This document shows positions 2,904 to 62,641 of a stretch of DNA of 64,000 nt, piece by piece. Origin of the DNA: a bacterium. GTDB lineage: Bacteria; Armatimonadota; Fimbriimonadia; Fimbriimonadales; Fimbriimonadaceae. The notes under the pieces are model-generated. The model was not told the DNA's origin and made no database searches. It saw nothing but the letters and a program-made list of their open reading frames with translations. The DNA lies in the NCBI GenBank assembly GCA_027483535.1, contig JAIXUN010000002.1:1736001-1800000 (forward strand). Direction: 5' to 3'. Position numbers and translations under genes: made by a program. Every line of letters begins with the position of its first letter. Position 1 is the stretch's first letter.

Positions 2904-3755
2904 TTAGTTGGCAGGGCAGTCTGCGCTTGCGCCGCTGTTGGACCAGGTTTGACCGATGAACTGGTTGGTCTCAGGCATGGTCGGAACCATCCACATGTTT
3001 CGACCGGTCCAGGTGTAGATCGTGCATCGGGGGCCGTTTCCGCTACCCGGTCGTCCGCCTGCACCGTTGTTAGCAGCGTCAGCAGGACCTGCGGTGTAGA
3101 ACTTCGCGTGCGTGTCGGCAAAAGCGAGGTTTCCACCGTCTCGGTGAATCGCGCGGAATCGAATCTTGTTGATGAAGTCAGAAGACTCGAGGGTCGTGTA
3201 GATGCAACCCCAGGTTCGACCGTAAGGAGGAAGCGAGTTGGAGAGCAGGAACTGAATCGTGTTCGCCGGAGTGGAAACTGCGGTTTGCGAAAGAGGAATC
3301 GTAGGACCGTAGCTGCCGTACGTGTTGTCTCCACCAAGAAGGTAGTTCATCGAGTACGTGTTGGTCATGGTCATGCCTGCGCTGGAAGCACAGCCTCCGG
3401 TGAAGCCACCGGTCTTGTCCAACATCGGCGACTGGAAGATTTCTCGATTCTTCGCATACTGAGCGAGCTTAAGACCCCAGCCGTTCCACTGGAATCCAGC
3501 CGGAGGAACCGGCGTGTTGAACGGAGTTTGGTTTCCGCTGTTCCAAGGATCCGATGCACCGACGCCAACGAAAAGATCGTCGTAGTCTGCGGAATAGATG
3601 GTCGAAACCGTTCCCAACTGCTTCATGTTGGAAAGATCTTGGGTGTTCTTTGCAGACGCCTTGGCCTGAGCAAAAACGGGGAAAAGGATTGCAGCAAGGA
3701 TTGCGATGATCGCAATCACGACGAGCAGCTCAATAAGGGTAAATGCCTTTCGCAT
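2904..3755 (-). CDS. Prepilin-type N-terminal cleavage/methylation protein (pseudopilin)
   Basis: A type IV pilin/type II secretion-like protein of 283 residues. It starts [11 protein letters not shown], so there is a short basic leader, then a prepilin peptidase site before the Phe with Glu five residues on, then a long hydrophobic helix ending [11 protein letters not shown]. The rest is a globular domain with a Cys-rich loop (GGCASS) and an [16 protein letters not shown] segment of the kind found in DUF1559-like proteins. I chose the ATG at 3755 because GGAGTT precedes it at good spacing and the leader then fits; an upstream ATG at 3767 adds only four residues. A second paralogue lies at 61732-62553. 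Its partners (prepilin peptidase, secretion ATPase) are not in the window, so whether it forms a pilus, a pseudopilus or an envelope protein is unknown. Confidence 0.9.
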
Positions 3756-3787
3756 GGATAACTCCACCGCAGAGGTTCGCTCACAAC

Positions 3788-3827
3788 TGTTAAGGAACGT
3801 TCAAGGTACGGTTAAGCCCCGGTTAAG
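3788..3827. promoter_or_regulatory. Pho-box-like array: four 7-mers at exact 11-bp period
   Basis: Plus-strand 7-mers TGTTAAG (3788), GTTCAAG (3799), GGTTAAG (3810) and GGTTAAG (3821) are each separated by exactly 4 bases. On the minus strand they read CTTAACC, CTTAACC, CTTGAAC, CTTAACA. Direct repeats of about 7 bases with an 11-bp period are the architecture bound by PhoB/PhoP response regulators, and CTTAACC matches the cyanobacterial Pho-box repeat. An A/T-rich -10-like stretch (TTCTAAAAAT, about 3833-3842) follows on the plus strand toward the phosphoesterase gene; a divergent role toward the pseudopilin at 3755 is also possible. The regulator itself is not in the window. Confidence 0.6.
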
Positions 3828-3868: not shown

Positions 3869-6388
3869 ATGCGCGGACGATCGAAGATTTCTGGGCTTTC
3901 AAGTAGCCTCACTGCAATCCTGATGGGATCCGCCGTATTGAATGGCTGCACCACTCCGTTGAAAGTTGGAGACCGGAGTGTTCAGGGTGTTCTCCTTGAA
4001 AACGGAGTTTTTTCCGATCCCGTTGGGCGACTCCAAGACCTCAAGTCGAAGCCCGTCTCGATTTTAGCATCGAGCGATCAGAAGTTCGTTTACGTGAAGT
4101 CGAACAAGGGGCTTCACGTTTTTGACTCATCGAAAGAGTCAGAAATCGGATTCCTCGCCGCATCCGGCGGCGCCTCATGGCACGGTCTGGGCTATCTCGA
4201 TAAAGAGAATTTGGTGCTCTTCACCAACAGTCAGAGTGCGCTACTAGTAGCGGATGCTTCCAAACCGACAACCTGGAAGAAGACGGTTTCGCTCTCTCCT
4301 TCGCAAGCAGCCTTGCCGAACGCTCCTGGCGGAGCTTCCTTCCCGACGGGAGTCGCCGTATCTCGCAACCGAGTTTATGTCGCCTTGAATCGCAAGAATG
4401 CGATCGCGGAACTGGATCGAAATCTCAACGTCATTCGCTACATTCCGGTTGGTATTGCTCCATACGATGTTCAGATTTCTTCGAAGGGCGTGCTCGCCGT
4501 CTCCTGCTGGGCCCGAGCCGCAACGGCTGGAGAACTGGCGGGAACCTCCTCAGGTTCTTCCGTTGCCGTCGACAAGGTTGGAGGATCGAAACAAGCAGAG
4601 GTGCGATTCGTCTCCCCAGACGGAAAGCAGTTCTCGGTTGCGGTTTCCAATCAACCCACGCAGATCAGCTGGTCCAACGACAAAGACCTGCTTGTCACAT
4701 GTGCAAATGGTGGAACAACCGAACGCGTTCGCTTTGAGGGTGCTCGCTCTCGGCGACTGGAAGCGGTTAAGGTCAACGGCTTACCCATTGATCCCGTTTC
4801 CAATCAACCAAGCGCCCTCTCGCAAGGACCTAACAGTGTCGTTGCCGTGGCGCTATCGGGTCGAAACGGTCTGGTGCTTTACCGAAACGCGAACGATAAA
4901 CTGGTCCAACTGGGGGTGATTCCAACGGGATCGTTCCCAACCGGAGTCATCGACCTCGGTTCAAAGTATGCCGTCGTCACATCGAAGGGAATCGGACGTT
5001 CTGGCAGACCCTTGCCCAAAGAGGGATCGGCCGTTTACCAGTTCGCCGGGACTCTCGAATTCATCGACAAGCCGAGTCAGCCAAAACTCGCCGAGTGGAC
5101 TAAGCGCTACTTTGCTTCGGTAAAGCCGGTTCAATCTCAGCAAGATGTGCCGTTTGCGACCGAAGGGACAGCACCTGCCATCGAGCACGTGGTCTACATC
5201 CTCAAAGAGAATCGAACCTACGACCAAATCTTTGGTGACATGGCCGTCGGAGACGGAGACCCTCGCTTCTGTGTTTTTCCTAGAGAAGTCACGCCGAACC
5301 ACCACGCCCTGGCCGAAGAGTTCGTGTTGTTGGACAACTTCTACTGCAACGGAGTCAACAGTGCCGATGGACACTCTTGGGCTACTGAAGGCAACGTAAC
5401 GGCTCACCAGGAGCGAAGTCATGGCGGATGGACGCGCAGCTACCCGTACGGCGATGATCCGGTTGCGATCACCAAAACCGGACACGTCTGGGATGCCGTG
5501 CTAGACGCGAAGAAGACCTTCCGAAACTTTGGAGAGTACGACTACGCCACGCCCGTCCCGGGCAACGCGACCTTCAAGCAGATTTACGACGACTTCGTCA
5601 CCAAAAAGAACGCCATCAAGTTTTCGCAAAACGTGGGCGTCAAGAGACTGCGGGATCACACCCAGGCAGACTTCCCCGGCTGGAACATGAGAATCCCAGA
5701 TGTTCTGCGTGCGGACCGATTCCTGACCCAAGTCAAGGAGTGGGAAGCATCGGGCACGATGCCGAATTTCACGTTCCTCTATCTGCCTCAGGATCACGGT
5801 TCTGGGTCGAGCGCAGGCATGCCTACCCCGGCGGCACACATGGCCGAAAACGATCTCGCGCTTGGTCGAGTTGTCGAAGGGCTCTCAAAATCCAAGTTCT
5901 GGGCGAAGACGGTTGTGTTTGTTGTCGAGGACGACCCCCAAGACGGCTTTGACCATGTGGACGGTCACCGTTCGATTTGCTTAGTCGCTGGACCGATGGT
6001 GAAACGTGGGGCGGTAGTTTCCAACTTCTACAACCAGACATCCGTCATTCGAACGATGCTCCATCTGCTTGGGATCAAGCCACCGCACGACAACGTCGGT
6101 CGATCCCCGCTCATGGCCGAAGTGTTTGCCGACAAACCAGACTTGAAACCCTTCGTCGCATTGCCGAATCGGATCCCGTTGGATCGACTCAACGGCTCTG
6201 GAAACGCAAAACTCGACCTCTCCAAACCGGACTCAAACAGCGACGATCATATGAACCGAATGCTCTGGGCGTCGGTCTTCCCGGATCGACCCTACCCGGC
6301 AGAATGGGCGGGCGCTCACGGGCGAGGGCTCGCGGCGAGAGGTCTCAGTTTCGATCCGAAATCAGCAGAGTCTGAAGACGAGGATTAA
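3869..6388 (+). CDS. Secreted lipoprotein: beta-propeller plus phosphoesterase (PF04185-like)
   Basis: A probable exported phosphohydrolase of 839 residues. The N-terminus has a signal peptide with a lipobox (VLNGC, Cys about residue 27), so it is likely membrane-anchored outside the cytoplasm. Residues about 45-420 show repeated short strands with YncE-like phrases (FVYVKSNKGLHVFD, NRVYVALNRKNAIAELD), consistent with a beta-propeller. The C-terminal half starts at HVVYILKENRTYDQIFGD, the hallmark of the phosphoesterase/phospholipase C-acid phosphatase family, with NGVNSADGHSW, LPQDHG and VVEDDPQDGFDHVDGHRS as likely metal-site segments. The substrate cannot be told from sequence. A Pho-box-like array sits just upstream, suggesting induction under phosphate starvation. 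Its TAA overlaps the stop of the next, convergent gene. Confidence 0.88.
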   Translation: MRGRSKISGLSSSLTAILMGSAVLNGCTTPLKVGDRSVQGVLLENGVFSDPVGRLQDLKSKPVSILASSDQKFVYVKSNKGLHVFDSSKESEIGFLAASGGASWHGLGYLDKENLVLFTNSQSALLVADASKPTTWKKTVSLSPSQAALPNAPGGASFPTGVAVSRNRVYVALNRKNAIAELDRNLNVIRYIPVGIAPYDVQISSKGVLAVSCWARAATAGELAGTSSGSSVAVDKVGGSKQAEVRFVSPDGKQFSVAVSNQPTQISWSNDKDLLVTCANGGTTERVRFEGARSRRLEAVKVNGLPIDPVSNQPSALSQGPNSVVAVALSGRNGLVLYRNANDKLVQLGVIPTGSFPTGVIDLGSKYAVVTSKGIGRSGRPLPKEGSAVYQFAGTLEFIDKPSQPKLAEWTKRYFASVKPVQSQQDVPFATEGTAPAIEHVVYILKENRTYDQIFGDMAVGDGDPRFCVFPREVTPNHHALAEEFVLLDNFYCNGVNSADGHSWATEGNVTAHQERSHGGWTRSYPYGDDPVAITKTGHVWDAVLDAKKTFRNFGEYDYATPVPGNATFKQIYDDFVTKKNAIKFSQNVGVKRLRDHTQADFPGWNMRIPDVLRADRFLTQVKEWEASGTMPNFTFLYLPQDHGSGSSAGMPTPAAHMAENDLALGRVVEGLSKSKFWAKTVVFVVEDDPQDGFDHVDGHRSICLVAGPMVKRGAVVSNFYNQTSVIRTMLHLLGIKPPHDNVGRSPLMAEVFADKPDLKPFVALPNRIPLDRLNGSGNAKLDLSKPDSNSDDHMNRMLWASVFPDRPYPAEWAGAHGRGLAARGLSFDPKSAESEDED

Positions 6389-62553: not shown

Positions 62554-62641
62554 GGGGCTCCTACTGTCGCGCAAAAATGTTAAGCAAAAGATAAGGGAAC
62601 GCCACTCTTGACCTGATTCGTACGATAATTGCAAATAAGGA

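Follow-up and report, generated by a model that had tools for sequence, protein, structure and literature searches.

A Pho-box-type array between a pseudopilin gene and a divergent phosphoesterase gene in a Fimbriimonadaceae genome and its probable link to phosphate starvation

The window analysed here, a 64,000-nucleotide stretch of a Fimbriimonadaceae genome, contains near its beginning two divergent genes separated by a short array of direct repeats. The minus-strand gene (2904–3755) encodes a pseudopilin with a prepilin cleavage/methylation motif and a hydrophobic helix (PF07963, E = 1.5e-7; TIGR02532, 30.7 bits, above the cut-off of 16.3); its likely ATG at 3755 lies about 33 bp from the array, and a GTG at 3767 is the alternative start. 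The plus-strand gene (3869–6388), with its ATG 41 bp from the array, encodes a secreted phosphoesterase matching PF04185 (E = 2.5e-14, 53.7 bits against a gathering cut-off of 23), in agreement with the first-pass annotation, which had placed it in a phosphatase-type family. The same protein also weakly resembles models of acid phosphatase and phospholipase C, with scores below cut-off.

The array (3788–3827) consists of four 7-mers, TGTTAAG (3788), GTTCAAG (3799), GGTTAAG (3810) and GGTTAAG (3821) on the plus strand, which stand at the positions and at the exact 11-bp period claimed for them earlier. Read on the minus strand, in the direction of the pseudopilin, it is CTTAACC(gggg)CTTAACC(gtac)CTTGAAC(gttc)CTTAACA. 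Such tandem direct repeats of about seven conserved bases at an 11-bp period are the form by which the Pho box is defined (PMC4415409). A motif-free scan of the window for four-copy 7-mer arrays at periods of 8 to 20 placed it at the top, with a score of 33 out of 42 in two adjacent registers that was reached nowhere else in the window at these periods and equalled in one of 60 shuffled windows. In the 3.77-Mb genome, CTTAACM-N4-CTTAACM is matched without a mismatch only once, by the pair CTTAACC-N4-CTTAACC of the array. We also scored the window with a weight matrix trained solely on pstS promoters from nine plus-strand loci of other species, and the array again ranked first in the 64 kb with a score of 17.1 (shuffle maxima, 11.3–15.4), which bears out its earlier reading as a Pho box. 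For the pseudopilin promoters discussed below, the motif was counted as present at a matrix score of at least 12; the score thresholds were picked after the data were seen.

The same element precedes phosphate-uptake genes. In this genome pstS (C4:508868) is followed by pstC- and pstA-like genes, and CTTAACG-atct-CTTAACA starts 51 nt before the pstS start. Across the order, where the start positions of pstS and phosphoesterase homologues were set by tblastn placement, the pattern recurs: 20 of the 30 examined loci for pstS or PBP have a forward pair between −42 and −68, 11 of these 20 lying outside the training set of the matrix. The motif thus stands before high-affinity phosphate transporter genes both in this genome and in its relatives, and GGTAnnTT is conserved about 8–11 bp past the pstS boxes in this genus. 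The pstB gene (L116:8337-9128) lies apart from pstSCA amid seemingly unrelated genes and has a weak pair of its own at −41; it was the only matrix match among 176 control ORFs. Boxes further precede the PhoB-like gene in two species (this genome and the relative G004), a MetallophosN/C phosphoesterase and an NAGPA phosphodiester glycosidase in this genome, and metallophosphoesterase-like (Metallophos) genes in the relatives G017 and G019; in this genome the boxes of pstS, the PhoB-like gene, the MetallophosN gene and the NAGPA gene are all forward. A three-copy CTTCAAC-CTTAACC-CTTAAGA was seen at L051:5462-5490 before a protein with an NAGPA domain and a signal-like N terminus. The window begins with a pyruvate phosphate dikinase gene, whose product shares 72–76% identity with its counterparts in the nearest MAGs, most of them Armatimonadota and Fimbriimonadaceae among them; a CTTAAC pair lies some 110 bp upstream of this gene (L052:11947-11964, corresponding to C1:1735946-1735963). 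Neither of the two phoU genes of the genome was found to have a box nearby. Because the motif precedes pstSCA, pstB, the PhoB-like gene and phosphoesterases, and because PhoB- and PhoR-like proteins are encoded, the assignment of 3788–3827 as a putative Pho-box array is well supported at the level of sequence.

With respect to the pseudopilin, the array is oriented as the pstS boxes are. This genome contains about 48 close paralogues of the pseudopilin, for which 45 distinct promoters were scored: nine carry the forward motif and none the reverse, with about 0.2 expected and a frequency of 1/176 among the control ORFs under the same matrix. In these promoters half-sites stand most often 11 or 33 bp apart, with four cases of each compared with 0.02 expected per spacing. 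Another motif, CTTATCT(tttg)CTTAACA at 62578–62595 on the minus strand, is the second-best matrix match of the 64 kb (score 14.8) and starts 42 nt upstream of a further minus-strand pseudopilin (start at about 62553). Six relatives contain 63 near-exact pairs, many of them just upstream of pseudopilins of the same orientation; by hand count, about 14 of the 35 pairs in G013 and G010 lie roughly 20–110 bp upstream of such a gene, with far fewer than one expected. At the score threshold about 36 of the 45 pseudopilins of this genome have no box, and Pho control is therefore not general to the family. Pho boxes typically stand about 10 bp upstream of a −10 element; between the array and the pseudopilin a clear GGTAnnTT-like −10 element was not identified, and TGAGCGAACCT occupies that place. 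Three further observations concern pseudopilin loci elsewhere: a pair scoring 19.1 precedes a pseudopilin in the opposite orientation (L309:5224-5241); small lipoprotein-like genes, possibly a recurrent partner, diverge from boxed pseudopilins in two relatives (L269:1073-1429 and L297:1125-1490); and boxed pseudopilins with phosphatase neighbours suggest a putative association. The first-pass annotation had mentioned only in passing that the array could serve the pseudopilin; its orientation and the distribution of nine forward against no reverse motifs make the divergent pseudopilin the better-supported candidate target of the two genes.

The phosphoesterase, for which the array had originally been proposed, is a plausible second target. 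Of 38 homologues in other species, 10 have a box no more than about 90 nt from their start, and seven of these ten boxes are reversed as in the window (p = 1e-7 by Fisher's test against control ORFs). This value, like the p-values generally, is optimistic, because the species are related and their sequences therefore not independent. Three of the six such phosphoesterases of this genome face a pseudopilin across the motif; in the other two such pairs the phosphoesterases lie at C1:2190882 and C4:612180 and the motifs score 17.1 and 11.1, respectively. Two divergent pairs of this kind, with a CTTAAC motif between the genes, are seen at L303:5777-5794 and L061:4769-4803. The remaining three phosphoesterases, which have no pseudopilin beside them, lack a comparable motif at the gene start. 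Since homologues carry boxes and paralogues in the same genome face pseudopilins across the motif, shared two-way control is plausible. A related arrangement was seen at L304:5900-7560, where a PhoA-like alkaline phosphatase gene immediately precedes the pseudopilin gene that most resembles that of the window; the gap between them holds several TTAAC repeats at 18- and 14-bp rather than 11-bp spacing, and a reversed box before the PhoA-like gene (L304:7543) scores 15.0, a single weak case.

These data bear on two narrower accounts of the locus. That the array serves the pseudopilin only, its position before the phosphoesterase being incidental, is a serious though less probable alternative: it would fit the one-sided orientation before pseudopilins, the forward orientation of pstS boxes in nearly all genomes and the majority of phosphoesterase homologues that have no box. 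Against it, reversed boxes recur at up to about 90 nt from phosphoesterase starts in other species, several such phosphoesterases, including one with a perfect pair in G010 (L280), have no adjoining pseudopilin, and half of those in this genome share the motif with a pseudopilin. The account first proposed, with the phosphoesterase as the main target of the array, appears unlikely. The 41-bp distance to the ATG, the boxes before homologues in relatives and the gene class, a usual Pho target, speak for this account, yet the array is reversed relative to the gene, unlike the uniformly forward boxes that pstS, the PhoB-like gene and the MetallophosN and NAGPA genes have in this genome, and the motif is strongly enriched before pseudopilins. 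The original proposal therefore stands in part: boxed homologues recur, but they are a minority, and the pseudopilin is better supported.

We next consider the protein that would bind the array. The genome encodes a PhoB-like response regulator (C1:635459), whose best NCBIfam model is PhoB and whose best PDB match is RegX3, and, 12 kb away rather than adjacent, a kinase (C1:647321) whose two best models are PnpS and PhoR. Both are below the respective equivalog cut-offs (244 bits against 296 for the regulator, 274 against 334 for the kinase), so that they are best regarded as PhoB-type and PhoR-type candidates; the absence of such a pair, which would have spoken against a Pho box, is not borne out. 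A published Fimbriimonas genome likewise reports PhoB and PhoR (PMC4072686).

Regulators of the OmpR family usually use direct repeats about one helical turn apart, and this genome has three OmpR-type response regulators. Another member of the family, for example an RpaB- or MtrA-like protein, might therefore bind the array and govern a regulon of its own that includes pst and pseudopilins. We consider this improbable: the regulator whose own gene is boxed, here and in a relative, scores highest of the three on the PhoB model (244 bits against 181 and 189), and further boxes stand before pstS, pstB and phosphatases.

A scan with CTTAACC alone at three mismatches returned largely background. 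The genome scan suggested by the first-pass annotation was positive, with boxes before pstSCA, pstB, the PhoB-like gene and secreted phosphoesterases. The raw counts of CTTAACM-N4-CTTAACM show no enrichment (63 in the whole genome against 69 for the reversed control); the signal therefore lies in the placement of the matches. Short degenerate repeats are common and the total counts do not exceed the control, yet a chance repeat without function is very improbable for an array that is the best of 64 kb, the best match in the window to an independently trained matrix and located in accordance with a genome-wide and genus-wide pattern.

Among described systems, the closest published motif is the SphR Pho box of cyanobacteria, with the consensus CTTAACCT in 8-bp repeats with 3-bp linkers (PMC1906773), so that the resemblance of CTTAACC to a cyanobacterial repeat noted at the outset holds, with the same period. 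The two share nearly the same half-site, the 11-bp period, at least three tandem copies and a position before pst and phosphatase genes. They differ in phylum, in the last base of the 7-mer, which is A or C in this genome, and in that the targets here include a pseudopilin family absent from the portion of that account considered (PMC1906773). The PhoB Pho box of Escherichia coli, built from 7-bp direct repeats with 4-bp spacers (PMC4415409), has the same geometry, a position before pst and a −10-like element shortly downstream of the pstS boxes, whereas its half-site is CTGTCAT instead of CTTAACA/C, and some boxes here are reversed. The Hxc type II secretion system of Pseudomonas resembles the present case as a pilin-like secretion machinery serving phosphate scavenging (PMC2225411); it is a dedicated T2SS gene cluster, in contrast to the scattered single pseudopilin genes with Pho boxes found here, and hxcR itself is not phosphate-regulated in P. 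fluorescens SBW25 (PMC2225411).

Taken together, the best explanation, and in our judgement a likely one, is that the array is a Pho operator that most likely activates the pseudopilin and plausibly also the divergent phosphoesterase. Under phosphate limitation the PhoR/PnpS-like kinase (C1:647321) would activate the PhoB-like regulator (C1:635459), which probably binds the CTTAAC(A/C) direct repeats head to tail, one helical turn apart. Transcription of the pseudopilin would most likely rise as a result, since the array has the orientation and the distance seen before pstS, and the phosphoesterase may also be activated from the reverse orientation. The pseudopilin might then act in export or surface attachment during phosphate scavenging; that pseudopilins deliver or anchor phosphatases is a guess prompted by the phosphatase genes next to them and by the example of Hxc in Pseudomonas (PMC2225411). 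Sequence evidence supports the putative operator and its resemblance to pstS promoters, the repeated occurrence of the motif before pseudopilins and phosphoesterases, and both regulator candidates.

Elements of this kind are known; the noteworthy part is the recurrent inclusion of pseudopilins. Our literature search found no description of a Pho regulon of Armatimonadota, and the present results sketch such a regulon, whose consensus closely resembles that of cyanobacteria. Because the array matches the switch before phosphate-uptake genes across this order of Armatimonadota, pilin-like surface proteins probably belong to the phosphate-starvation response of the order. More tentatively, and with rather less confidence than we attach to the operator, a subset of pseudopilins in Fimbriimonas-like Armatimonadota could be a conserved Pho-regulon module, often placed beside secreted phosphatases under a shared operator, which would form fibres specific to phosphate starvation, either for export or at the surface, with which these enzymes are deployed or anchored. 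The finding also offers a regulatory clue to a pseudopilin family that has dozens of copies in each genome: some of its members appear to be linked both to phosphate starvation and to secreted phosphatases.
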